Assembly (NCBI RefSeq): GCF_032854445.1
Contig: NC_088301.1
Span: 31,089,630-31,153,629, forward strand
Source: Liolophura sinensis
Lineage: Eukaryota; Mollusca; Polyplacophora; Chitonida; Chitonidae
Length of the DNA stretch: 64,000 nucleotides
Reading direction: 5' to 3'
This document shows, in pieces, positions 14,701 through 51,400 of the stretch (the first letter of the stretch is position 1; every line of letters begins with the position of its first letter). The notes beneath the pieces were generated by a model. The model did no database searches, was not told where the DNA came from, and was given only the letters and a program-made list of their open reading frames with translations. A program made the translations under genes and the position numbers.

Positions 14701-17700
14701 GATATTGTCCATGCAGCTCTTCCTAAAAGTACTGAACCTATTGAAACTTAGTATTCATGTTTCCTATCAACTAATCTTGTGGATGCTGAAGTTTCATTAC
14801 TATCGGGTCATTACTTTTGTAATGACTGCCTTTCATGTACTTCGTGCAGTAATGGATTTTCATGTACACAGATTTTGTCCATGCCACACCTGCTTAAGCA
14901 TTGCAGACTCTGTGTATATCTTTCATGTCATCCAGACATCTACGTGCTTAATAATAATCACGTTCTGATTATTATTTTCATAGTTTACAGCTAATTGGGC
15001 AAACTGAACACACCTTTCATTATCCTAATATTGTACTCAAAGCTCTGCATTTCAGTATGTATATGTTACCATCTTTTTAGTCAGGTTTTTGGTTTTTTGG
15101 TCAACCCTCATGAGTTGAATCTTCATAGTGTTACATTTTCATGCTTTAATATTTTTTGAAAATGTTGGGGCCATGGCAGGGGGCTATTTCAGATGTCCGG
15201 TTTCTAGTTTCATATCTCAAGTTTGGACGTATTTTGTCTTTCAGTGCATCAAGTACTCTTGGTAACAGCATCAAAGGTCCTCACACAGCATGGCTATCAG
15301 GATAGTGTGGATGCCATCATTGATTGTGACGAGTTGAAATTACTGCTCACTCAGCTGTACAGTAACGTGTCCGAGCTTTCTCAGTCTGATGTGCTTGTGT
15401 ATGCGGAGCTTCTGCAGAATTTCCTGCTGAATGCATATGATGTGTGAGTATGCCAGCCATTATTAAAAGTATCTTTGGCGTAACTTGACCGACGGTATAA
15501 AAAGTTTTTGTTTGATCTTGATAGAAGTGGTGTATATTTTAAATTTTTGTTTTAAATTCTTCAGAAATCTTTTTTCTTTTCCACTGGCCAGATTTAAAAC
15601 CAACCAGCTGTGTAGTTTGTGATGGGGTCTGGTAACACCAAACACCTAACGAAGAATTTTTTAAAAATGGCTGTCGGGTACACGTAGTTGCTTTTGTCTT
15701 AAAGCTGGTTCAAGCTGGCTTCTTCTCAGCATGTATGTGGGAACTTCTGTCAGCAGTCTTGCCTAGTTTCCTTCCACCAGAACGTTGCCACCATCATATA
15801 AATGAAATATTCTTGAGTACGCATAAAACAGTATATCAGCTGATCTTCTGCTGATAGCCCAGGACAAAAGACAGAATACATTGTTGTAGAGCTGATACCC
15901 GTTCCCACAGTAAACTGCGAAGAATCGTTTCATGCAGTCTAGCACGAAGCTGCTGTATTATTTAGATAGAATGGTTTTGTCCTATTTTTGTTGATTTTTT
16001 GGTCATAACATGAAAACATCTTAGAGTGTAAAATAATTTTTGCAGATTTGTAATTGTGATGCCAAAGGGCACCAGATGGTGTGTTTGTGTAATCAGTTTA
16101 GGCAGTTTTAAAAATTGACGTACTTTTCAGCCAAGTTCATTGGTCAGATTTGGCCTTATTTGAATACCTGACTAAAAGTTTTTTACCGTATAGGTAGGGT
16201 AATCCAGCTAAAACTGTAAATGAAAACTTTATCTTGATAGGTTTAGTTGTTTTGGAGAAGAACATTTTTTTAGCTTAGCAATAAAATTGAAAATGGCCGC
16301 TAAATTATGTGACTTGTAAAACTGTACGAAATGTCAAAAGTTGCTTCATATGCTCTTAAGCTTGGTTTTTCTATCTTTACCAGTTTTCGAAATATTGCAT
16401 ATGAGCTAAGAATAATAATCTGAACAATTTCGAGAAGTGTTGCCCTAGGATACTAGCGTGGGCCCCTATTTAATTTGTGACGTAGAAGCAAAGATTGGAA
16501 TTAGTTCTAGGATGAAAACAAAGATTACTTATCTAAGGTTATATGTGTAAAGAGTTCACATATTTGATGTGAACTGCCTCAACCAGATCTGGCGTTCAGC
16601 ATAAAGGGGAGAGTGCAATGTCTGGTTGACCCGTATCAGTATAATGGCTCTGGCAGGGCGGCTTGTTTGCCTTCTGTAAGTTGTCTCAGTGATGCAGCAC
16701 TAGATAAAAGAGCGGTGGAAATCCGTCCTGCTACAAGGCGGTACATTACATGCACTCTAAGGATTCCTTCGTCATCATATGACTGAAAAATCATTGATCA
16801 CGACGTTAAACCCCAAGCACTCACTCACTCACTCACAACCAGATCTGTGCGACTTATTATTATGAACATATACATCATAGACTGTGTTTTTTTTTTCAGT
16901 TTTCAACAAAATGATAAGCAGATTCAACTCATTCATGCTAGCGTGGCCTTATGGTTGGACATAACATTTATGGGCTTATCAGTGAAGTCATGAATCTTGT
17001 ACTAATCTCAGAATCATGTGTGGCAGGGTTACTGGGTGTCAGGGCAAATGCATGTAGAACAACCATGACTTTGTTGTTAGTCTGCAATGATTGAACATGA
17101 CTTATTTGGTTTAAATACCTGACACAATATATAAATATGTTTAGTTACTTGCGTGGCTTGTTGCATGTACATTCTGTGGCAGTAATTATTATAACTTCAA
17201 TGTTTTTCAGGCAACGCCGTGGTCGAATCAGTGTGCTGTCTCTCAAGGTTGCTCTGGGATGCCTCTGCAATGCTCGACTTTCTGAAAAATACAAATGTAA
17301 AAACTAAAGTATCATTATTTAACTGTTCGCTCCAAAGTGCTAAGATTTTGTATCAAATAGATGATGACCAATAATTATTAGCAATTTATAAGTTGTTTGT
17401 GCTTAGGAGAAAACTTTATAATATTCATTCTGGTCAAGCGTAAGATTTGATTTATTTATTTCATTGGTTTTTAACGCCGTAGTCAAGAATATGTCACTTA
17501 TACGATGGCGGCCAGCATTATGGTGGGTGGAAAAACAGGCAGATCCCGGGGGAAACCCACAACCATCCGCAGGTTGCTGCAATACCTTCCCACGTACGGC
17601 CGGAGAGGAAGCCAGCATGAGCTGGACTTGAACTCACATCGACCACATTGGTGAGAGACTCCTGGGTCATTACGTTGCACTAGTGCGCTAACCAGCTGAG

Positions 17701-20700
17701 CCATGGAGGCCCCGCTTAAGATTTGGCGTTGTCAATCTTGGTTCTTAGTCGCTTTATACTGGGTAGCAAAAAACCAAAGTTTTCAGAATGAAACCATAGA
17801 AAATCTGAACTACATGTAATTTGTGAACACATGAAGTAAATGTGTCTTGGTTCTTTTAACTGATTTATTTATACGTATGTTTTTTTGTCTGTGACAGTTT
17901 TTTACCGACAGCTGTGTGATTCTAGCTTCTTCATCAGCAGTAAGATGTTGGGCTCCTTTCTGCAGAACGCTCTCCAGGTGTGAAGGATTCTTTTGTTTCA
18001 GTTATTTATATGCCTATTGTGGACAGAAGAAATTCTTCTTAAATATCTACTTTTGACATATTTTTTGTACATTTTATTTTATTGTATATGCATGCACTAA
18101 AGAGACATTGACTACCTATTTGTGGCACCGTCACAATGTAAACAGTTCTTTTTTGCTTTGCTGCAGATGATACATTGACTGTTTTTCTGTATTTTAGTTC
18201 AACTAGTTTACTCAGTCACCGGCTAGTCATAACTAGGTTATCTAATGAAATTTTCAGTCACGTGTTTATACTGGTCATATTTCTAAATTGAAATTATTTG
18301 TGGATGATATATCAAGAAGGACAATCTGAATAATCTGAGCAGCTCCTTTGCTGTGGCCCTTCATTGGTTGAAACATGTTACATGTACATGTGTTTTAAAT
18401 GAACTTGAACGAGCCCAAATGGTACCAGAATCTACCCTGAAGGGATGAACCGCTGGTACGTGCAAATCGAAAATGAACTCTGGTTGATCACGTTGACTGT
18501 GCAATTCATTTATGTCTCCTCCAGATTCATCTCATTTTTATGATCAGGTGCATTGGTTTCATCCAGGATCATCCAAGTTTCCCAGGCAGGTGCAGTGGTT
18601 TCCTTCAGTCTTTTCCCAGTTTCCTGGACAGGTTCCATGGTTTCCTCTATGCTTTCCACGGTTTCCTCATCCATACGTTGCCTAACTGTATTAGACTTCA
18701 TTTCAACTGAAATATTGTTCAGTTGAGTAATGCCTAAAACATCCTTGAATCAGATAAATGAATGTGATTGTTTTCAGCTGGCGGAGGTAGTGCATGAGAG
18801 GAAGGCATTTGGAGGGAACAATGTGGCTCCAGCAGTGAACAGCTGTATACGTTTGGTAAGACCCCATTCATCTGTCTTCATTTACATATAGCTTTTATTC
18901 AGCTTTATCCCTGTGTTATGTATTTGGAAAGTTAAGCAGATACAAGTTGTGACAAGAAAAAATTAACACACCATGTGTTTTGTGAGGTAAGCTGAGTTCA
19001 TCTGCAACCTTTTCCTGTAATTGAATTCATTATTTAGAATTTGTGCAGTTTATAGTAAAATTGATTTCATTTGTCGCATAAAGGATTTATGCGACAAGAC
19101 TCGAGAACACTTTGTGGAGATTTTTGGCATTCACTTTGGAGCACTTTAAAAATGAAACCAATATAAAAGTGTACTTCAATGGAAAAAAATGTGTGTATCT
19201 GTATGCCATAATGGAATTGCTTACTTCATGAAAATGACAGTGGTCTATAACTTCGTGACTGAGTTAGTTTATGTTTACAGTCTGGACAAGGACCAGGGGT
19301 TAGTGAGGACAGCTTCCTGACTTGGCTGAACAGAGAGCCTCAGACACTGGTCTGGCTACCTACGTTACATCGAGTAGCAGTGTCAGAATCAGGTAACCAA
19401 CTGCACCACTAGCAGTGTCAGAATCTGGTAACCAACTGCACCACTAGCAGTGTCAGAATCAGGTAACCAACTGCACCACTAGCAGTGTCAGAATCTGGTA
19501 ACCAACTGCACCAGTAGCAGTGTCAGAATCAGGTAACCAACTGCACCAGTAGCAGTATCAGAATCAGGTAACCAACTGCACCACTAGCAGTGTCAGAATC
19601 AGGTAACCAACTGCACCACTAGCAGTGTCAGAATCTGGTAACCAACTGCACCACTAGCAGTGTCAGAATCTGGTAACCAACTGCACCAGTAGCAGTATCA
19701 GAATCAGGTAACCAACTGCACCAGTAGCAGTGTCAGAATCTGGTAACCAACTGCACCACTAGCAGTGTCAGAATCTGGTAACCAACTGCACCACTAGCAG
19801 TGTCAGAATCAGGTAACCGCTGCACCACTAGCAGTGTCAGAATCAGGTAACCAACTGCACCACTAGCAGTGTCAAAATCAGGTAACCAACTGCACCACTA
19901 GCAGTGTCAGAATCAAGTAACTAACTGCACCACTAGCAGTGTCAGAATCTGGTAACCAACTGCACCAGTAGCAGTGTCAGAATCAGGTAACCAACTGCAC
20001 CACTAGCAGTGTCAGAATCTGGTAACCAACTGCACCAGTAGCAGTGTCAGAATCCACAAATTGAACAAATACACTATCGCTGTCAGTGATTCAAAAATAA
20101 GCAATTTCCTATGCTATAAGCTTAGGATGGCAATTTTAATCACCCACGCCAACTTTTACTTTGAAGATCACATGGTCACTAATTTGTCTAAAGACCTGAA
20201 CAATATTTCTACAATTGTCCATATTCTTACATGCTTTGTAATAGTAGGCCATGGTGAAACATTTTTAATGATTTCAAATGAAATGACTGTTTCAGCAAAG
20301 CATCATGCCAAGTGTAGTGTTTGCAAAGCATGCCCTATATTGGGATTCAGGTAAGTCAATGGAAAGCCTCAATATAAAGCAGAAATATCTTAACAAAAAC
20401 CTCCATCAGTCACTCTTTGCCAAACTTAAAGGCTACTGCAAAGCAGTTGGTACAGTTTTAACGTAAATGGGGAAAGTTATGAAAGGAAAAAAACTTACTT
20501 TTGAGGCCTATTTTAGATCTCATAATACCTACTCGAAACACTCACTTATTTAGTTATTATGAAAAATTATCAGTGAATGTAAAGATGGTAACAGTCATAC
20601 CATCTACATTGTCTCTAAGCTGTACAGTACCATTAGCAATGAATGTAAAGATGGTAACAGTCATACCATCTACATTGTCTCTAAGCTGTACAGTACCATT

Positions 20701-23700
20701 AGCAATGAATGAAAAGATGGTAACAGTACATTGTTTCTAAGCTGTACAGTGCCATTAGCAATAAATGAAAAGATGGTAACAGTCATACAGTCAAACAATT
20801 TGCATTTCCAGATTCTTTCATCCATAGTAGTACATGATTTAAATTGCCAGTCAAATAAAAACGTTTCATTTAATCCCATGAACAGTTGATATTATTGCTG
20901 AGTTGAATAAAATTGGACACTCTTGAATTGAACATTTTGAACAACAATATATTTATGACATCATTAACTTGCTTCTATCAGAATTATCTGCCTCTACAAA
21001 GTTCTGTTATTTATCTCATCCCCAGGTATCGGTGTCTACTCTGCTTCAGTTTTGATATTTGTCAGCAGTGTTTTCTGGTAGGAAGGACAGGCAAAGGCCA
21101 TAAACTGAAACATCCTATACAAGAGTACTGTCTGCCGGTAAGACTTTCGTCATCAGTTGAATTAGATCAGGGTTTCTGCCTTTCTATGGAATGTAAATCT
21201 GCTAGTTGGTTAGCGCGCTAGTGCAGAGTAATGACCCAGGAGCCTCTCCCCAATGCAGTCGCTGTGAGTTCAAGCCCATCTCATGCTGGCTTCCTCATCA
21301 GCCGTTTGTGGGAAGGTCTGGCAGCAACCGGCGGATGATCTTGGGTTTCTGGCGTGCTCTGCCCAGTTTTCTTCCATCATAATGCTGGCCACCGTCGTAT
21401 AAGTGAAATATTCTGGAGTACGGCATAAAACACCAATCAAATAAATAAACAAATATAAACCTTCTGCAGTATAATTGATGAAAAGTTAGTCTCCAGATCA
21501 AGGAGTACGGCGTAAAACACCAATCAAGTGAATAAATAAATAAATAAATAAATCCTGGGTTGAGTCACACCTAACACTTTAAAAGAGGAAGTTGTAACTT
21601 CCTCGCTTGGCGTTCAGTATGAAGGGGATAGTGCAACGACTGGTTGACCCGTATCAGTTTAATGGCTCGGGCGGGGCAGCTTTCTTGCCCTCGGTAAGTC
21701 GTCTCAGTCAAGCAGCACTAGATAAAAGAGCAGTGGAAATCCGTCCTGCAACAGTGAGGCACACTACATGCACCCTAAGGATTCCTTCGTCATCACATGA
21801 CTGAAAAATTGTTGAGTACGGCGTTAAACCTCAAGCACTCACTCACTGACTCACTCCATGTGTATGTTTTGAGCAATTCTCTCAGGAATCTTTAATCAGC
21901 TACAGCTCATAAAATCATTTAACCTGCATTCCAGTTCTATATTTCATGCTTAATTTGGTTTTGACTGCTGCTTTAAGTGAGGAGGTTTTTCAGGTAGCAA
22001 TTAAAGGCAGTGATTTACTCTGGGTACCATAGAACTGATGGCTGTTATTCAAGTGAAAAATTGAGTCTAATGTTACAACACCAATTAAATAAATGGGTAA
22101 TGTGCATTTCAGACATCTTCAAGAGAGGAGGCTATTGCATTCATGAAAACGGTGAGAAACCAGTTGAGCAAGAAGCACAGGGAGAAGACGAAGCCCAAAT
22201 ATTTGCCAATAGACAGCAATGACTTGTCTGACGTAGATATGAACAGGTAACAGTGTGCTGGAGCCCCACCTGAATTACCTCCACAGTGTATTGGGGGAGA
22301 TGACTGATTTATAACTTGCACCTCCTCATTGCAATGTGTACACACAAGGGTCACAATTATCGCTGGCACGGGGATAGTGAAAGGTGATGAGAAAAGGAAA
22401 TCAGACAGGCCAGCTTAATTTTAAGAGCAGATATAAGCAACAGTCAAAGTAACAGTACAAAATAAAGTTTTATAGGTTTTGAAATGACAGTGCTGTTGGC
22501 AGCTGGTAAGCTTACACTGGTCATTGGTGTATTAACCCTACATGTAGTAAAGTGTACTCATATGCTACACCTGAGGAATTTATATTTGTTGTTTGATTTA
22601 AGGTCATTTGGAGGTATTTTACAAGACAGCACTGTCCAAAATAAAGCCCACTACATTCAAACCCACCAGAAGTATGGCCATAAACCAACAAATCCATCAT
22701 CCAGCAATAGACTTCCCAGTAGTGGCAGTCAGTTCAACAGAAAAGTGCTTCAGGAACTGAAACTGCAGAATGAAAGCAAGGTTTGTGGTTATCACTTTCT
22801 ATAATTGACTTAAATTTCATTAAGCTTCACATGAAGCACCACCTTAAAGATGTTATGGGGTCCCATCAAATTACCTCCCTTGAAGTAACTCTCCCATTTG
22901 AAGGGAATGTTTTAGGAGTGACCTGCTAATGGCTAGTTTTGAAGTTACAGCAGCATAAGTTAGTTCCAGTCCTACATATATCTTTATATAGAATATATAT
23001 TATATATATATAATATAGACAGATTTTAATGTTGGAAAGAATAAGCATTCAATATTTTAAAGATTTTGGAGGAAATTTAAGAATGTACAAAGCTTTGTTG
23101 CGACAAACTGCATGCACATAATGCATACTTCAATAGATGAAGTCCCACTTCTCGTAGTATCACTCCTCAAAACTTAATCTTGCATTTCATCATATCTGCC
23201 GTCATGGGGAAGAGGCCTTCTCTAGCACGAAGATACCATATCACGAATTGAGTTATTATATACATCATTGTCTTGTGTAATGCACTGGTTATGTTATTGT
23301 CATGCATTTAGTAGCCAATCTACTGGTTTTGCCAAATTTTTGTTGCAACAAAAGATTTTCATGTACATGTATACAAGATGAGAATGCATGTACATGGAGT
23401 TTATTGATGACCATTTGTCTCCTTGTGTGTGTACTTATAGTACTGTAATCCCTCAACCTTTTCGCATGTTTGCAAGGTGTTTATTCCAGCATATTCTGAA
23501 GGATTTATTCTGTGTTGACTGATAAAATTATATTTTTGTGAAGCCTGGAAACTGGCCAATCCAACCAATGTAGTTTTGTCTTCTAAAATCAGAATAAAAA
23601 TATGCATAAATTGTACTGAATGTTGCTCTTTTGTATGCAAAAAGTTTAAGGAATTAAGGCAACTCTGAATGTTTCTCTTGGTGTATATATTTGTTTTTCC

Positions 23701-28269: not shown

Positions 28270-28322
28270 GAGTGAGAGTGAGTGAGTGAGTGAGTGAGTG
28301 AGTGAGTGAGTGAGTGAGTGAG
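28231..28322. repeat. (GA)n and (GAGT)n microsatellites
   Basis: About 18 GA units followed by gtgagagtgagagtgag and about 10 GAGT units, joined directly to the 60-bp minisatellite. Confidence 0.97.
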
Positions 28323-29890
28323 TTGGTGACAATACCACAGCGAGAGAGTGGCAATGACAACACTACAACTAGAGAGAGGGTTGGTGACAATACCACAGCA
28401 AGAAAGAATGGCAATGACGACACTACAACTAGAGAGAGGGTTGGTGACAATACCACAGCAGGAGAGAGTGGCAATGACAACACTACAACTAGAGAGAGGG
28501 TTGGTGACAATACCACAGCAAGAAAGAATGGCAATGACGACACTACAACTAGAGAGAGGGTTGGTGACAATACCACAGCAGGAGAGAGTGGCAATGACAA
28601 CACTACAACTAGAGAGAGGGTTGGTGACAATACCACAGCAAGAAAGAATGGCAATGACGACACTACAACTAGAGAGAGGGTTGGTGACAATACCACAGCA
28701 GGAGAGAGTGGCAATGACAACACTACAACTAGAGAGAGGGTTGGTGACAATACCACAGCAAGAAAGAATGGCAATGACGACACTACAACTAGAGAGAGGG
28801 TTGGTGACAATACCACAGCAGGAGAGAGTGGCAATGACAACACTACAACTAGAGAGAGGGTTGGTGACAATACCACAGCAAGAAAGAATGGCAATGACGA
28901 CACTACAACTAGAGAGAGGGTTGGTGACAATACCACAGCAGGAGAGAGTGGCAATGACAACACTACAACTAGAGAGAGGGTTGGTGACAATACCACAGCA
29001 AGAGAGAGTGGCAATGACAACACTACAACTAGAGAGAGGGTTGGTGACAATACCACAGCAAGAGAGAGTGACAATGACAACACTACAACTAGAGAGAGGG
29101 TTGTTGACAATACCACAGCAAGAGAGAGTGGCAACGACAACACTACAACTAGAGAGAGGGTTGGTGACAATACCACAGCAAGAGAGAGTGGCAACGACAA
29201 CACTACAACTAGAGAGAGGGTTGGTGATGATACAACAGTTAGAGAGAGTAGTGGTGACAATACCACAACTAGATAGAGTGGTACTGACAATACCACAACT
29301 AGACAGAGTGGTACTGACAATACCACAACTAGATAGAGTGGTACTGACAATACCACAGCAAGAGAGAGTGGCAACGACAACACTACAACTAGAGAGGGTT
29401 GGTGACAATACCACAGCAAGAGAGAGTGGCAATGACAACACTACAACTAGAGAGAGGGTTGGTGACAATACCACAGCAAGAGAGAGTGACAATGACAACA
29501 CTACAACTAGAGAGAGGGTTGGTGACAATACCACAGCAAGAGAGAGTGGCAACGACAACACTACAACTAGAGAGAGGGTTGGTGACAATACCACAGCAAG
29601 AGAGAGTGGCAACGACAACACTACAACTAGAGAGAGGGTTGGTGACAATACCACAGCAAGAGAGAGTGGCAACGACAACACTACAACTAGAGAGAGGGTT
29701 GGTGATGATACAACAGTTAGAGAGAGTAGTGGTGACAATACCACAACTAGAGAGAGTGGTACTGACAATACCACAACTAGACAGAGTGGTACTGACAATA
29801 CCACAACTAGACAGAGTGGTACTGACAATACCACAACTAGACAGAGTGGTACTGACAATACCACAACAAGATAGAGTGATACTGACAATA
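28323..29890. repeat. 60-bp minisatellite, about 26 copies
   Basis: The unit is two related 30-bp halves: gacaataccacagcaagaga gagtggcaat and gacaacactacaactagaga gagggttggt. From 28381 to 28920 alternate copies differ (agaaagaatg...gacga versus ggagagagtg...gacaa), giving a 120-bp higher-order unit. The block around 29041-29340 recurs about 480 bp later with the same marker copies (gatgatacaacagtt). Stop codons are nearly absent in several frames on both strands, which yields long false ORFs. Confidence 0.97.
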
Positions 29891-29997
29891 CATGTCTAAA
29901 CTTTCAACATTATTATGGTCTTTGAAAACTCTTTGCAGTTACTAAGTACTTAAATTATGGTGAGGAATTCCTGATGATCATGATGATTATGATGGCG

Positions 29998-35822: not shown

Positions 35823-36165
35823 GCTTCAGCAGGATACTGACCTCACCAGGAAATCAACCTCACCAGGACATTAACCTCACCAGGGCATTAGCCTCAATAA
35901 GACATCAACCTCACCAGGGCATCCGCTTTATCAAGACCACAGCCTCAGCAGGATATTAACCCCATCAGGGCATCAGCCTCAGCATGACTGTAACCTCACC
36001 AGAATATTAGCCTCAGCAGGGCAGTTACTTTACCAGCACTTAAGCCTCACCAGGACATTACAGTCAGCCGGACATCAGCCTCAGCAGGACTGTAAACCTT
36101 AAGGAAAACAGACTCTTGTACGAGGACTGTAACCTCAAGGAGGTCTACAACCTCACTAAGACAAT
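35823..36165 (-). repeat. About 20-bp degenerate repeat overlapping the PDZ gene stop codon
   Basis: Around 16 imperfect copies of aacctcaccaggacattag. The last copy at the right, acctcactaagacaat, contains the reverse-complemented stop (cta at 36156-36158). In the transcript the unit reads cctggtgaggtt, so the 3' UTR carries many ctg/gtgagg motifs that resemble 5' splice sites. Confidence 0.88.
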
Positions 36166-36429: not shown

Positions 36430-39400
36430 CTGAGAGTAAAGAAAGAAATAATGCAGATAAGATAATGTGGAATTCAAGGTACATCTTGTACATTGTGCAT
36501 TAAGCCTACATCGATTCCCAGGATTAAGGGAGCATTCTAGGTCATTCTATGACGGTGCAGAACACTAGCTTGACAGCCTTGGTGTGAACACGACAGACAG
36601 ACTCAGTCATTTCTGTACATTCTAAATTTGGAAACTTGATCAGCGCCAAATGGATGAGCTTCCCCCAAAGTTCATTACATTCTACAGGTCATCAGTGAGA
36701 ATGAGAAGAAATATGCCTGACTTACGAGTCCTCCTGAAAGTCATTAGATGTGGCGACATCATAAGATGGTTTATTGCCTGCATCTATACTAGCTGGTTTG
36801 CTTGAGTGACCACTAACACTCACTGTGGTCTCCTCACCTGTTTAGAAGAAAGAAATAAAAATTTAATCTGTCTGTAACAACAGTGCTAGGGTCCAGTGCT
36901 TAATACCGTCTCTAAATGTTACTTTGCTTGTCCTAAATTGTTGAACAATCCATTTATTTAGTCTACTGTGTCTGTCTTTAAACAGCAGCAAAAAGGTACC
37001 ACACAGAGCTAGACCCCAGCATTCAATCTCGTTTTTGGGCCAAAAGAATACAATGTTAACAAGCCTTAAATGAAAGGTAAACTCTGAAACAATGTTGACT
37101 GAAAAAAAATCAGAAGGTTTAAGGTTTCTGTTGATGGCATTCATGATTTTTTTGTGATTTTTAAGCGAGTGATAGTGCACTACACATAGCATGTCTATAA
37201 ATACAAATACTTAAGCGCCACCCTGTTCATTTATTTTAGCTCTTCGGTGTCTGAAGGCAATATTGTACAGCCTTCAACAGATTTCCATAGTCACCTTGCT
37301 CTCTGTTTACTGCCACATGTTCACTACAAGAGGGAGGATGTCTAACTTCCGTGCAAACCCATATCAATCAGTGACATCAGGTAATTTTCATGAAATATTA
37401 TTTAGTTTTAAGTTGTGAAACTTCCAACATGCATTCATAGATTTTTTTCCTGTGTGTGCAGCAACTGATAGCTATTACAAACAGCTAATCATGTTAATAT
37501 TTTCCCATTTTAATTTCAGCCCATTCCAGCCCAAGTTGCATTTCACAAAGCAGCCCTATTATAGCTACATTCTGCTCACTGTGATGCTACATTATGTACA
37601 TCCTGTCAGAAGAAACCAGCTATACTTTACCGTGGGTTACCCGCATCTTTATTGGTCCAGCAGCATTCTTTAAACAAGCAACTGCCTGATCCAACGTCAT
37701 GTTTTCTGTTGACTCTCCATTTATACTTAAAATATGATCTCCAACCTACAAAAAGGGAAGGTTTTAGTCAAAACTGTTAAAAACAACAAGAAACAGGACT
37801 TGTGGCATTATAATTACAAAATTTGACCCCACACAACCATGAAAAAAAAAAAAAACTACAGGAAGCTTCACAATACAATCTGAAACCAATAGAAGATATA
37901 TCTGAAAGTCAGGAGGTTTGCTCAGTACCTTGTTATGGACAGTGTTTTTACTTAGGGCAATCTAATTTGCACATACTTTTCAACAAGCTTTTGTTCGTTT
38001 CATTTTCCGCTTTTAAACTTAGATACACAATATTTATCAAGTTTATACGTGGAGGAAACCAGAGTAAACCACCAGCCTTGGCGGGAATATGGCAAACGTT
38101 CATGTATAGTGGCAGTCAAATTAGCACGAGTTAGACTTGAACCAGGTTAGACAGGGTTCAATCATTTGTGGCAAGATCAATAATTCAGACAAATTCACCA
38201 AAACGCCACGCAAGATGCATTCTGTAATTAATATAATATATATGCATCAGGATCACAAATAATTAATATAACACAAATATTAAATTACAAATATCATTCA
38301 GAGAATCTATCCCATGTTAAAGATACATCACTAATGCACAAATCCAGCTGGTTTTCAAACTTGATCCGAGGTTAAACAAAAACTTTGTGAGCAAAGTTTT
38401 ACCAAAACTACATCGAGCAATTATTGCAGGGTAACCTACACTAAAATTAAAATTATGCTCGTCAGGATCCGTTTGCAATAAGCCGCTTAGCCCAATAACA
38501 GGTCTATGTTAAGCAGTTCAGTAGATATGGAGTTAGCATGAAAACTCAACATACAAGTCTCAACAGTCTGCTGTTGGCATCCATTTTCAATAGAAGGCTG
38601 AGCCAGTGGTAAGTACATCAGCTAATAGCTCTATATAAAGGGAAGTGGTTCTGTAGATTTAGAGCATAAATGCCAAATAGTTTGTGGACAGAGTCAATAA
38701 TGATGGACATACACAGAAAAATATTAGCCAATCAAACATGTAAACAAAGACTCAACACTTATGCTTAATACATAATTTTTGTGGTTTGCCATTAAATCTC
38801 CATATAGCTGGTGATGTACTGTACCTTCAGTTTTTGTGAGCGATTAGCAGGTCCAGTGGGGTTAAGATTGGCCACCATAATAGGTACATCTCCCAGGGGG
38901 CTACCCACACCACCGGCTATACTCAACCCCAGCGAGCCAGACTCATCCCGATTCAGCTGGACAACCCGCACTGTATTCCCATGGACAAGTTTGTCTTCAC
39001 CTTGCATGGACAGACAGATTAGTTCTTGGATAAAAATACTGATACGAAAGTACATCACATTCGCATTGTGGTGTCTGTGATGTCAACCCATTGCTTTTCA
39101 GATGTCATACATATATGCTACATTCACTGTTCTTATTTCCACACAACTTTTCTTTTCAGTTTTTTGTATAAAAAAAACACGGCCAGAACTGTTTAATTAT
39201 AAATTTTGTTTTCTAGTAACCATACATTATTCTGTTTTAATATATCCTGTCATGTAACCTAAGCAATATTAATGCATGCAATCATGGACAGAAATACCTG
39301 TTGCTCTCTTGTCAATAATATTCGTTTCTGTAAAACTAAATATAAATATATAGAAGCAGCTAATTTATGTAAAGTGTATTTATCCTGATAAAACCTTTAA

Positions 39401-42400
39401 AGTGCAGAAATGTCTAATACCATCCAAACCACACTGCTAACTCAAACAAACTAATCACGTTGAGTTGTCTACCTTTAGCAGCTTTCCCTCGCAGTTTGTT
39501 GCTCACATTGGAATCAGATTTACGGAGACCTGTTCCCGTACCAGAATTTCTTCTTGATGAGGCTCTTGAGCCAGCTTTTAACCTCCCCACTGTTAATGAC
39601 ACTTTGCCCATTATTGTCTGAAGACAAAAAAGTTGATGCACATTTAGATTCAGATGGTAAAGAGTGAAAGCATGTATAGATAGCATTAGCCAAATGTACT
39701 GCAGTAAATGACCGAAAATTTCGCCCAAGATTCCAAATTGCTTGATTCTGAGAGTTCTGTTAATCTTAAAAAGAAATCACTTGTTTGGAGTGAGTGAGTG
39801 AGTGAGTGAGTGCTTGGGGTTTAACATCATACTTAACAATTTTTCAGTCATATGACAAAGGAATCCTTAGAGTGCATGTATGTGTAATGTTCCTCCTTGA
39901 TGCAGGACGGATTTCCACCGCTCTTTTATCTAGTGCTGCTTCACTGAGGCGCCTTACTGAAGGCAAGTAAGCCGCTCCGCCCAAGCCATTATACCGTTAG
40001 GGGTCACCCAGTAGTTGCCCTATCCCCTTCATGCTGAACACCACAATTTGTTTGGAAGATGGGATGATATCCCACTCCAAAAATGTACCTCTCAAAACAA
40101 AGAAGTAATATTCTGACATTTATTCTACATTTACTGCAAATTCTGACCCTGATATTTATTTATTAAATGTAGATTTTGAGGCACAAAAAACTAAAAAAGG
40201 CCATTATGTAGAGTCCACTTACAAAGAGAGTTAAAACCTTTAAATAGAAGAATATATTGCCAAAATCAGGGGCAAGAAACATGAATTAAACAACAAATGG
40301 AGTAGTAGCTATAATGTATTTAAAGAATAAACAAAGGTATAAAAATGCGAGAGGAGGTCAGAGCGAAAGTGTGGCTGCACACAAATGTTAGTCTTCTGAT
40401 TAGTGAAAAGAAAAAAAAAAGAAAAAATACATTTTTTTTCATGTAATCATGAACAAGTTAATAAGTTTTGTCAAGGGTGGAAATAAGATAAGATTAAGGA
40501 CTCACCTTGAGCATGGCAGCTGCATAGTCTTGTGTGGCACTGCGGAAGTCATTGCCATTCACAGCCAGTATCTGATCTCCCTGCACCAGTCGCCCGTCAG
40601 CCTCTGCAGCACCACCTTTCACCTGGCCAAAACAACACCTTCAGTCTTTAAATTCAACCGACTAAGTGAAGTATCCAAATTTCCACAGTTCAGACCATCA
40701 ACCCGTAAAACAATATCAAAGTCCAATTCTGCAGTTTCATTAGTAAATTTACAGCACTGCAATCTTTTAAGACATTATACATATATTAAATATGTAATAT
40801 ACGTAAATTTCTGACCAATGACAGAAAATATAATTAAAGTTAAGGGGTAATTATGAGACATTAAAGTTTGCACCAAAAAATGAAACTTTAAAAAAACAAA
40901 AAAAAACAAAAATCATCACAGGAAATGACAATTTTAAATATCAACAAAGCCTGACATGCTATGTATCCACTCACCACATCTGATATGTACACTCCTACGT
41001 CATTCCTCTTTCCAACAATACTGATTCCAAGCCCTTTGCCAGGCTTTTTCACTAATTCCACGGTGAAAATATCATATAAGTCCTCTTCCTTCAACTGGTT
41101 ATCATCCCGAAACACAACCATTTGAATCTTAGCAGGTGTTTGTCTTAAAACCTGGATGGCTCGATCATGTGAGGCTTCACGTAAGTCTTCATAATTCACC
41201 TGTAGCAGTTAAAATCCACACAAAACTTACACATAAAGGGAAATAACTCTTCTTTGTGATACCAATACATTTTACATATTATGTTATATATTCACGGTTT
41301 TTACACTGCCATCAACAAACCTTATCAAAATGGGGCTGACCAACCCTGACAGAAGAAGTCACCAGTAAAAACACATCTGAATCTGTGACAGGTGTGCATC
41401 TATACTATGGATGTTCTTCAGTCCTTGTTAGTGACTGTATTAGTGATAGCATGAGCAGATTTTGTTATCCGGACCCTAAAGTTAGCAATCAGTCTAAAGA
41501 AGTTGTTTACCTCCAGGATTTGGTCCCCAGGTTTAAGGCGGTTATCTCTTGCCGCAGCACCATCAGCATAAACTTCATGAACGATTATAGTTCCCTGTCA
41601 CAAAAACAGTACAAGGAATGAGTAACAATAAATAGGGAAATATGAGTAACAGCAATGAGTACTATACTAAGTAATACTGTAATAATGAAGCCCCTGCAGA
41701 GAATGCTGATAACAGTACTGTACTAAAGGCCACACCAATTTTATTTTGTTGTTTACAGGTGAGCCAACATGAAAAAAGGTAAAAAATGGAATAAAAATAA
41801 AACTGAAAATCCACCTTCATAGTTAATCTGATTCGGATGTTTATGATTTTCCTGATGTTCAAGGCTTTCTGAGATATGTCTTGAACGGGGAAAAATGCTG
41901 AGTATACATTTTCCACAACTTAGAAGATTTTCAAGTTTTATTTTTATACCTTCCTCCGACATTGACAAAATATCTATCCTGCCCATTAAACATGTTAAAA
42001 TTTATGAGGCCTAAGAAAAGCGCATAATGTATTTCTTATTTATTTGATTTATGTTAAGTGCTGTATTCACTTAATTTCACCTATACGTGTACCACCCATC
42101 CTTGCGACCTATCCCACATGTAAACTACACCATATTAGTGGAAAGTAAGCGATCTGTAATGAATGCTAAACTATACAAATGGCAACAGGAGCACCTGGGC
42201 AATCAACAAATTCCCTGTAATGGCCATTAGGTGGGTTTCAATCTGTATCTTTTATCGAAAACAAAGCGATACTGCACTATTCAAACTTTGGACACAATAT
42301 TTACAAACAGTTACGCTGGCTGAACAGTCTAGTTTGCCTCAGTCGTCAATAATAAATTGTTTATTTATCTTGAAATTTTCAAAAAAGCAACATGTGATCT

Positions 42401-45400
42401 TGTAATCATACTGTAAATATTACACTCACCAGCAATGTATCAGCACCTCCAACAATACTCAATCCCAGCCCAGAGGTGCCCTTCTCTATCTCTATCTGAA
42501 CTTCTCGGCCTGGCTCTATAGTACAGGTTTTTGGATCAGGGGGAGGCAACTGTGTTGTGCTTGCAGACTCAACTGGGTCTGTAGTAGACTCCCCTTTGTG
42601 TACAAATGTATACAAATTAATCGCAAGTATAACCAGAAAAATGGTTTCTTTGATCACAAAACCTTCTACAAACAAAAAATGTGACATCTGTGTTTTCCTG
42701 TTATTACTTTTGATAACAAGAACAAAATCCAAGATTATGTGCATGAAACTGTATATCTGACTTAAAAATGTCCCACAATTAACCTGGGCAAAGACTGCAA
42801 ACCACAGCTTTGATAAGAACCACAGCCTTCTGTCATGTACTTGACAAGTCTTCTGAATTACAGCTACAGCTGAACTAGAATCAGATCTGGAGCCTAATTG
42901 GATGGGATCTCCTTGATTTAGAGAGGTTGAGGACAGACAAATGTAAGAGAGGCCGACAAAATAGGACGGCAAGACTTACCTGGAACAGCGTTAAATTTGA
43001 TGACACCTTGGGGTGGAGTGGACGTTTCAGGTAAGGCATGCCCGTTATCAAGCACTTTTAGTTTTACTGTTCCATGGGTTCGCCGCAATGCTTCAATTGC
43101 CTACAAGAAAACCCAGGAAAAATGACAATGTTGGTAAGTTTAAATGCTGAAAAAGTACATCAACAACTGAGGATTGCTCAACCTCAAGAATTTGGGTTAA
43201 GCTCATCTTACTGAAGTTTCATCAATGAACTGCCATGATTTGGTTTAAACTCACCTCATCAGAATGAACATCAACAGGTGAGGTTTCAAGATTTCGCTTA
43301 AGCTCACCTTATCATAATTGACATCAACAAAATGATGTTTCCTCAACCTCCAGGATTTGGTCAAGCTCGCCCAATCATAATTAATATCAACAAATCAGGT
43401 TTCCTCAACCTCCAGGATTTGGTCAAGCTCACCCAATCATAATTAACATCAACAAATCAGGTTTCCTCAACCTCCAGGATTTCGTTCAAGCTCACCCAAT
43501 CATAATTAATATCAACAAATGAGGTTTCCCCAACCTCCAGGATTTGGTCAAGCTCACCCAATCATAATTAACATCAACAAATGAGGTTTCCTCAACCTCC
43601 AGGATTTGGTCAAACTCACCCAATCATAATTAATATCAACAAATGAGGCTTCATAAACTTCCAGGATTTAGGTCAAGCTCACCTAATCATAATGAACATT
43701 AACACATGAGGTTTCATCAACCTCCAAGATTTGGCCAAGCTCACCTTATCATAATGAACATTAACACGTGAGGTTTCATCAACCTCCAGGATTTAGTTTA
43801 AGCTCACCTTATCATAATGAACATCAATCAGTGAAGTTTCATCAACCTCCAGGATTTGGTTTCCCACTTTCAGTGTCCCTTCCTGCAACATGGATAAATG
43901 CTCCATAAATAACATGTGCATACTAAGCAGGAAATCAAAACAAATACACATTTGGTTAAACAAGTACTATGGGATTACAAACAAGGCATTCAGAGAACAC
44001 TGGTGGCTGTTTTTAAAGATGTGATACATTCAAATATTGACCTCCAACCTCTCCCCCGCCCCCCTATAAAAAAAAAAAAAAAAAACCCATAGAATGACAC
44101 TGTCATACACAGATATTATCCTCTAAAGAAACAGTGCTATGATCTTGCCAATAGATAAACAAGAATGACCACAATTATACTGTCACACCTTATACACAAG
44201 GGTTGTAGAACAATGACTTCATATGTTATGGAGTTATAAATCAGTGTGGAGGTAAAAAGACACTGTGGGTGATTTCGTGGAAAATTTTACCACAGAGGTT
44301 TTTGGTATACAAATTGCAAACTGCAACTGGCAATCCACGTACTATGGGTGGCAACTGCAACCCTGTGAATAGCTGAGCAAAATGTTGGGCTTTGAGGTAA
44401 AAGGTTTCCCTTGGTCTTTGATATGCAAATGGATACCGATGATCTGTGTACTATTCGTGGCCACTGCATACCTATGATTGGCCAAAAACTTCAACCAAAC
44501 TGGGCACAGACAGCACCTGATCCACTTCTCACAATATCCCTCCTTACTTCGTAAGGCAAACTAATAAATGCTAAACAATAATTACCTCTGCTGCAACACC
44601 TCCAGGTGTAACATTTTTCACAAATATTCCCAGCTTCCCTTCATCCATGGCTTCGCAAATGGCAAATCCTAACCCTGTTGTACCCTGAATATGAACAAAA
44701 TATGAGTACGTCCATGTATCTGAACCATATTTGTGTATTTCACTCTCTAACTTGAAATCAAAGCTCATAATACTTCCAGACTACATCTATGAACATTCAA
44801 ATCACTGACTTGGTCTTTTCAATATCCACATAACTATTTTTTTCACTCCCCCGGGGTCAGTTATTAGAAAGTGTATTAAAGGATACATGAAAACGAATTA
44901 TAAAACAAAGAATTTTTGTTAAAAAAAAATTCCTTCTGGAGGTATTTTTATACCAGTTAATTACCCGTCTATATTATGCATATTTTCCGTCAACCGTCAG
45001 ACTTTTTCAGAAATTACGTCACAGTTGATCTTACACATGGTGAACACCCCACAAGTACCCCGAGCCTGGTGAACCATGACGCTACAGTGTGGGCAAGGTG
45101 ACCTGTACACAGACACTATATGGCTTCTTCGGGTCAAGTTAGCACCCTCTTTCTGCCCCTACACCATCCCCAATTTGGTCTGTTCCCACACCTCTGCCCC
45201 TATTCAGATGGACCTGTTCGGTCTGTCCCCCACAGAGTTCTTTTTAAACAGGGGTTATCACTAATATCACCAATGCAAGCTACTTAATTTCGGGACTGAC
45301 CGCTGGGGCCTTAAGACAACTGTACTTTGAAGCCATTTTTACCCCCCAAAGTGAAAGTTGCAAAATTTGTCTGTACTGTTATATGATATTACTTTGTTTT

Positions 45401-48400: not shown

Positions 48401-51400
48401 ACATTTGTAACAGCATACTCATTGGGCAGGAATAAAACTGCTCCACAAAAGACATTCACAGGCCAAAACTTCAGTCATGTCATCTCCACCATAATAAGCA
48501 GATATTCCCTGCAAGTAATCAGCAAGTAAACCAGTAATTAAGGGTGTTCATTACAATCTGGCAGACTGTCAGAGGCAAAGCAGACCACCTACTCAAACTG
48601 ATTCAAAATATCAAAAATATGATGGCGTTGTCCTTGCAAAACTTGACCATTTGTGATAGACTTAATGTAAGTCCATATCAAAAAAAATGTCAGAGTAACA
48701 AGACAATTCTACACAAGGAATAATTTCAATTACATACCTGGTGTATACAGACTACAGTGCCCATTCATACAAATTCAATAAATATTGGGTTGAATTTTAA
48801 ACATTTCAAATTTTACATACTGGTACATCGTTTTGTCACTTTTCTTTCTTTATTTTTTTCTTTAATCTCTCTCGGGTCACAGCACAAGGTATATAACTGG
48901 AATCATGTTCTATTTCTAATATGTGCATGTGCACCACATGTACATCTGCAACTGATCTGCGGACTAGTAAGGTGAGTACAGAAATATTGCGAGAGCCTCT
49001 ACATCATCAAGGGCGGTAGGGGTCTCAGCTAGATGGTCCCAGAGCCTCCTCTCCCGCGGGTCTCACACAGCAGGAGAGGAAGATATCCATCAACTTGAGC
49101 AGTGATGCTGTTGTAAAGGATTTTCAAAACTATTAGACCATGTATATTTGCATGTGCCAACTCGTAGCTGTATCACAAATATATAATGTAGACCAAAAAC
49201 ATAGCCTCCACACCACTTGTACAAAACAAACCTCTCCCATGAGACTTTAGAAATCACTCATTTGAAGTTCAATTAAATACTTAAAAAAAAACAGACTACC
49301 CATAAATAGAGTATGTATCATCTAAAAGACCCAGTTATGTTTATTCCCATGTTATGTTTTATGATTTTATATGGAGAATAAAATGCAGATATAGACTAGA
49401 ATTTCTACAATGTCAAAAAATACCACATCTGGAATCTGCGTGGAATGCATTCAATAATCCCCTGGGTCATAAAACTGAACTGGTCATAAGGTGATGTTCT
49501 ACACTGACCTGATCATTAAGTAATAGTCTACACTGACCTGGTCATTAGGTAATGGTCTACACTGAGCTTTTCATAAAGAAATGATCTACACTGAATTGGT
49601 CATAAGGTAATGGTCTACACTGACCTGGTCATTAGGTAATGGTCTACACTGACCTGATCATTAAGTAATAGTCTACACTGACCTGGTCATTAGGTAATGG
49701 TCTACACTGACCTGGTCATTAGGTAATGGTCTACACTGACCTGGTAATAAGGTAATGGTCTACACTGACCTGGTCATTGGGTAATGGTCTACACTGACCT
49801 GGTCATTAGGTAATGGTCTACACTGACCTGGTCATTATGTAATGGTCTACACTGACCTGGTCATAAAGAAATGATCTACACTGACCTGGTCATCAGGTAA
49901 TAGTCTAATAGGCAAATAACACTGAACTGGCCATAAGCTTATGGTCTACACTTTGAAAATCTAGGCTGTTGAAGGCCTTCACAACAATACATGCCAGCTA
50001 ATGTGTACATGTATATAGGCCTACAGAGCCGGGAAAAAGACTGACCTACCTTGCCAACTGTGTTCTGCTTGCAGTGTCATGGTAACATGTGCATGTACCT
50101 TCATTACCACATTCTTCAGTGTTTCCACATAGTCTGAGCAAGGTGTGCCACTGAGCAGACAGTTAATGACTTACTATATGCACAGTTATTTGGGGAGAGC
50201 TGGCTCAACTAGCCATCTGACTACAAACAGCACAGATTCACAGATGTTTATCAATATTCACACTGATTGCCGATGAACAGATCATCTTCTCTCCATTGAT
50301 TTTCAGGCAATAGGTATCTGCCAAAGCAAACATCTCCAGATTGTGTCCATAACATAAAGTTTCATGCTGTACCATCTAGCATTCAGCCACATGTACTGTA
50401 CATCAAGGGTTGGGTGTTCAGGTTCTCACACTGTTTATGGCTGTAAGACTGATGAGCCGATATTAACACAATAAGCTGATATATAGATGAGCTGATATTA
50501 GCAACATAATCGACAGAAGGTGAACATATACACCTTCCTCAGACAGCCTTTCTCAAGAGGCTTTCAATAATGTTCCGTCAGTTCAACATGAGCCTTATCC
50601 CAATGCTGGTACATTAATTCCAGATTGGTGTGAAGATCTTACACAGCATCTCGTTAGACATATAGGTAGACAGTCTTCCCTGCTGAAGAGACCTATCCTA
50701 GCCATGGGGCGGTGAAAGGTGACAAATAGTAGGGATACAAACGCCGCATCCAGCGCATCACCATGTCTGAGCAGTCCAGGCCTGTTTATAATACATCCAT
50801 AATGAACACACGGGCTGGTGACGCTCGGTGTACGTGTAGCTGCAGGGACAGCGTAACACACAAACCAGCTACATCTTTAACATTTGCCAGGCAACACCCA
50901 ACCAACACTATACCGATGAAGAAACATGGCTGACTGGAATCAGCAGTAGCCTGGGTGACCCGTCTCCTCAGCTCATCCTCCATATGCTGGCCATTTCCAC
51001 ACCTGTTGAAACCTCCCAGAGCGACATGCTTCCACCTACATGCTAACCCCAGCCTGATGAATGCCGAGGATCTAGCCTGGTATTATAGGAATGCCCTGAC
51101 AGATGACATTACGGAAGGTAGCCGCAGATCACTGCCTATGCAATGGTACGTGTGAGGCCCTGGCTAGCCTGCTATTGATTGTCAGCTGTACTAAACACCC
51201 ATTGGCAAATCTATTACTGCACACACATGGGTGCAAGCACCAAGAGGAGCGACATGCAGGCTGAATGTCAGCGCTGGTGAGCACAGGCGACGTACTTCAC
51301 CACTGCACATATCACAGCCACTTGTTTGCTGTCGCACATGCTTTTGTGATGTGCTGTCTCAAAAGCAAATTGGTTCGCCGCGTCAGAAAAGGTTCCAATT

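Follow-up and report, generated by a model that had tools for sequence, protein, structure and literature searches.

A minisatellite repeats an exon end and its 5' splice site in a dystrophin-related gene of the chiton Liolophura sinensis

A gene related to dystrophin in the chiton Liolophura sinensis carries a minisatellite that extends across an exon-intron boundary and contains the end of an exon together with its splice donor in each of 19 full units. The array lies in a window of 64,000 nucleotides (RefSeq assembly GCF_032854445.1, contig NC_088301.1, positions 31,089,630 to 31,153,629), by which the whole analysed stretch of DNA is meant. It had been described in a first-pass annotation and its existence was confirmed. 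We consider it probable that the array is a near-neutral structure of the kind called "mirage" in amphioxus, in which the donor attached to the exon would be used and the repeats would leave with the intron. For the gene itself the array is most likely harmless.

The plus-strand gene encodes EF-hand_2, EF-hand_3 and ZZ domains and resembles dystrophin. "Dystrotelin-like" and "exon 8", as we presumptively call the gene and the affected exon, are labels retained from the first-pass annotation. The relevant features are the following:

19281..19392, plus strand: exon 8 (112 nt) of the dystrotelin-like gene, in which the EF-hand_3 region ends
19375..20054, plus strand: minisatellite with a 35-bp unit, 19 full copies and one truncated copy (TRF and unit alignment)
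19393..19394, plus strand: authentic donor CAG/GTAACC, first copy (assigned by frame and homology)
19428..20023, plus strand: 18 decoy donors; the first GT is at 19428 (unit 2), the last at 20022 (unit 19)
19393..20295, plus strand: array-bearing intron, 903 nt long when spliced from the first donor
20296..20350, plus strand: exon 9 (55 nt), with which the ZZ domain begins
21026..21137, plus strand: exon with the remainder of the ZZ domain

Within 19375-20054, TRF reported a period of 35, 19.5 copies, 95% matches and a score of 1213, and the repetition is thus not due to chance. Each unit consists of 18 nt of exon end (TAGCAGTGTCAGAATCAG) and 17 nt of intron including the donor GTAACC, and the last 18 nt of exon 8 are the exonic part of unit 1. 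The earlier description of the repeat as an exon end joined to its donor thus holds, but both ends of its span were shifted by two positions and the exonic share, given there as 16 nt, is 18 nt by unit alignment. Unit 13 comprises 34 bp. The 20th unit departs from the 17th base on and is devoid of a donor, while GT is present in 19/19 full units, i.e. in the authentic donor and 18 decoys, in agreement with the approximately 19 copies and 18 decoys previously estimated. Nine of the 18 decoys are identical to the authentic donor over nine nucleotides (CAG/GTAACC), eight read CTG/GTAACC and one, in unit 16, CAA/GTAACT. At position -2, A occurs in 11 units and T in eight, in the order ATATAAATTATTAAAATAT. 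The exonic part of the unit is homologous to dystrophin coding sequence (LHRVAAAETAKHQAKC in dystrophin), indicating that it is ancestral coding sequence and that the end of the exon gave rise to the intronic repeats. By an own-genome DNA search of the assembly (609,464,459 bases in 632 contigs), which skips very common words, no second place for the 35-bp array was found.

The first donor is the only one from which the reading frame continues into the conserved exons of the ZZ domain. Splicing from any of the 18 later donors leads to the same in-frame TAG, the seventh codon past the first donor, after the residues SESGNQLHH; the earlier prediction of a TAG within eight codons was therefore correct. 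As a rule, a stop codon upstream of exon junctions triggers nonsense-mediated decay (NMD), and by analogy this rule is carried over to chitons. Since the dystrotelin-like gene has more exon junctions downstream of the TAG, transcripts spliced at a decoy donor would be expected to undergo NMD.

The genome contains two dystrophin-type loci, of which the dystrotelin-like locus is the more divergent one. Over a stretch of 38 residues, 27 are identical to human dystrophin in the window gene and 32 in a paralogue on contig C1. This paralogue does not possess an intron at the position where the window gene holds the array. Several minisatellites were observed in the introns around an exon of the paralogue (G000:C1:38711105-38714260), none of them across its donor. 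The EF-hand and ZZ exons of the dystrotelin-like gene are open, conserved and flanked on both sides by usable splice sites. Further upstream, in the stretch 17296-18778, a candidate exon near 17900-17980 was picked by eye and judged against the dystrophin sequence; the gene model is partial. A genome search for retrocopies of the spliced exons returned the exons of the window and places of at most 72% identity, and no retrocopy was seen.

Arrays that copy a splice site are not confined to this gene. A second one occurs on the minus strand of the window and a third one elsewhere in the genome, in genes that we take to be MPDZ-like and Dlg-like, respectively:

43808..43882, minus strand: exon of the MPDZ-like gene (multi-PDZ)
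43300..43860 (TRF), minus strand: second donor-spanning array, units of about 62 bp, each comprising 44 nt or more from the end of the exon plus the donor GTGAGC
C12:20399838-20400348 (7-517 of locus L064, C12:20399832-20400972): acceptor-spanning array with a 42-bp unit

The second array contains eight further copies of the donor region within the TRF span, one of them with GCGAGC, and a ninth donor beyond it, at 43254. All nine later donors meet an in-frame stop within the first unit. Taken over about 43250-43860, this array is more diverged than the 35-bp array. In L064, the unit is composed of a pyrimidine tract, CAG and the exon start and is located upstream of a Dlg-like PDZ exon; by our own count there are approximately 12 decoy acceptors.

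A scan of the two window genes for boundary copies revealed them at 2 of 20 donors and 0 of 15 acceptors, these sites having been chosen by eye as part of the full set. For the PDZ exons at 40500-40622 and 37638-37757, both outside the chance counts given below, no boundary copies were found. Among 43 PDZ exons elsewhere in the genome or in the flanks, no copied donor (0/43) and one copied acceptor (1/43) were detected; in place of fixed boundaries, every GT and AG close to the ends of a match was scanned, with no more than 500 bases of flank. These 43 belong to 70 places; the others are five in the window, five with long open frames and 17 more.

Some candidates were rejected. The array at 35826-36099 (minus strand) had been considered as a third donor-spanning array, but the preceding PDZ exon ends in a stop codon after GTVTLMVLS, presumably the C-terminus of the MPDZ-like protein; it is a degenerate 17-bp array just past this stop codon. 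The array at 49474-49907 contains CAG/GTCAGT on the minus strand, but no adjoining exon was recognisable, and the same applies to two arrays with AG-containing units in the stitched 264-kb sequence, at its positions 90044 and 237095. At L052, an array upstream of an acceptor stops short of it. The window also contains a 60-bp array with 26 copies at 28322-29891, which has long open frames on both strands.

Within 264 contiguous kb (the window and 200 kb flanks, L002-L021), 64 non-redundant arrays with a period of at least 10 cover 9.1% of the bases. If arrays landed at random, an edge unit would cover a given boundary with a probability of 1.2%, corresponding to about 1.5 boundary-spanning arrays in approximately 121 boundaries. 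Three were seen (P = 0.19); under two stricter array cut-offs the value was P = 0.06 and thus near significance. The base-rate sample is small, position alone served to locate some of its boundaries, and one of the arrays was the reason for choosing the window. As one of the three arrays prompted the study, the true excess at boundaries is smaller than the counts suggest. In this sample, the boundary-spanning arrays are compatible with random array birth, while a modest excess at boundaries is not excluded. When the genome was scanned for three AGGTAAGT in tandem, 147 + 335 = 482 matches were obtained versus 121 + 137 = 258 for the reversed pattern, a ratio of about 1.9, though the matches are non-independent and dominated by overlaps in long arrays. 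Among the matches listed, which are the first ones, all are on C1. The excess could mean that donors seed arrays or help to keep them, but no conclusion is based on it.

No sign of a function of the 35-bp array was apparent in the conservation of the donor columns or in the order of A and T copies. Of its circular six-column windows, 17/35 equalled or exceeded the donor window in invariance (the 34-bp unit was left out), and in the second array this was the case for 7/51 windows (nine copies used, the tenth left out). Column invariance in the two arrays thus gave no sign of a donor motif kept by selection, each array having few changes. Both the conservation test and the run test are weak for this reason, a homogenised array containing few changes. 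The first-pass annotation had also inferred from alternating tca and tct copies that donor strength varies along the ladder. A pattern of this kind was not borne out beyond chance, since 12 runs were counted versus 10.3 in shuffles (P = 0.28). The T copies scored 1.45 and the A copies 3.55, according to a vertebrate donor table. By the same table, the authentic donor ranked 10th from the bottom among 20 window donors and the GTGAGC donor of the second array third from the top. RNA folding predicted each of the eight T copies to be less accessible than every A copy and most array donors to be partly paired. The predicted fold of the array was only modestly more stable than shuffled sequences (z -1.73; 1/20 shuffles as stable) and is not remarkable; no conclusion is based on these folding results.

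The array probably arose when the exon-intron junction was duplicated in tandem, in a minisatellite-rich genome, and unequal exchange or slippage would have homogenised the units. Most likely, the spliceosome uses the first donor since no other copy is connected with the complete exon and the 3' splice site of that exon (exon definition). On removal of the intron the array would then be lost, and the protein would remain unchanged. We infer the donor used, the neutrality and the mode of birth, and some observations stand against the neutral reading. The first donor is no stronger than nine decoys, with which it shares an identical 9-mer. In duplicated-donor experiments by Reed and Maniatis, the intron-proximal site is said to be favoured in some cases. 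Furthermore, copied AG/GT signals could act as cryptic sites, a possibility raised in the amphioxus work (PMC3087553). The near-significant excess at boundaries under stricter array cut-offs and the surplus of tandem donors over the reversed pattern also count against it.

Of the other readings, the one suggested by the first-pass annotation is that splice choice, NMD or U1 binding in the dystrotelin-like gene depends on copy number. It is conceivable but unsupported, given that the donor columns revealed no extra conservation and that amphioxus arrays are reported not to disturb splicing; nor is the array unique, a second one of this kind being present in the window. Formulated as a rheostat, in which decoys divert transcripts to the common TAG and to NMD and array length tunes the output, it could draw on the GT kept in 18/18 decoys, nine with the authentic 9-mer, and on the shared early stop followed by further exon junctions. 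However, donor-specific conservation was not found, amphioxus arrays of the same kind reportedly leave splicing undisturbed, and the presence of the array can be accounted for by arrays falling on boundaries at random; we therefore regard the rheostat as unlikely. Somewhat less likely still is the wider version, according to which chitons have many hypervariable 5' and 3' splice-site arrays, the present one acting as a length-dependent NMD rheostat with heritable dosage differences by repeat number. Engineered U1 binding downstream of exons is able to rescue them, and the donor CAG/GTAACC has neither G at +5 nor T at +6. It is conceivable, though similarly improbable, that many U1 particles bound downstream of this donor define exon 8 and that the array is beneficial. 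Yet the donor takes a middle rank by score (10th from the bottom of 20 window donors, 18 of which do without arrays), the second array has a donor ranking third from the top, and most array donors were predicted to be partly paired, even if the z value of the fold is only -1.73.

It might also be assumed that the array already harms splicing and that the locus is becoming a pseudogene. The gene is the more divergent dystrophin-type locus (27/38 versus 32/38 residues as in human dystrophin) and its model is partial, with a by-eye candidate as the exon in 17296-18778, but such a decay is improbable in view of its open EF-hand and ZZ exons, which are conserved and bordered by usable splice sites at either end. 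Very improbable is an assembly artefact by collapse or inflation of the repeat. Tandem arrays are generally error-prone in assemblies, but the units of this one carry distinct variants, and the HiFi reads published for L. sinensis (14x, mean length 8.3 kb) are long enough to span its 680 bp.

The near-neutral reading has implications beyond this gene. The three boundary-spanning arrays, two at donors and one at an acceptor, suggest that such structures originate in any genome with plentiful minisatellites and are tolerated by the splicing machinery. With its 19 near-identical donors, the intron constitutes a natural experiment on exon definition versus nearest-site choice. At both the donor and the acceptor arrays, protein would be made only if the exon-attached copy wins, which would fit exon definition, while simple nearest-site choice would not predict this outcome.

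A search of the literature by titles and abstract openings, with few subscription journals, found no mirage outside amphioxus, which is no proof of absence. Two other systems are more distantly comparable. The human ABCA7 VNTR is, by the title of the report (PMC5954066), an intronic tandem array that affects splicing. For the potato RdRp gene, intron gain by tandem duplication is reported (PMC4974935), and as in the chiton a duplication within a gene is the source of splice sites, but in the chiton an existing boundary was multiplied and no new intron was shown.

The closest parallel is provided by the mirages of amphioxus, minisatellite-like tandem duplications of exon-intron boundaries described in the Adh3 and globin genes (PMC3087553) and also in TnC and PGBD5 (PMC3902484). 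In amphioxus, RT-PCR suggests normal splicing (PMC3087553, PMC3902484); the Adh and TnC mirages are reported not to give rise to aberrant mRNAs, which is suggested for PGBD5 as well (PMC3902484). As in the chiton, the tandem unit reaches from exon into intron and carries a copy of the splice signal, and such arrays occur at both 5' and 3' boundaries. The units of the Adh3 mirage are given as 10-72 bp, a range that includes the 35 bp of the chiton unit, and in both animals variants shared among units suggest concerted evolution. The host differs, the chiton being a mollusc and its array known from one assembled copy, and so does the size, with 19 units compared to six and three reported for the haplotypes of amphioxus BflGb6. 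In the chiton, a tandem unit lies across the exon-intron boundary (19375-20054), the AG/GT signal recurs in the extra copies (GT in 18/18 decoys) and several loci are affected, at 5' (43300-43860) as well as 3' boundaries (L064). In anatomical terms these arrays are mirages, a mollusc case of the kind known from lancelets.
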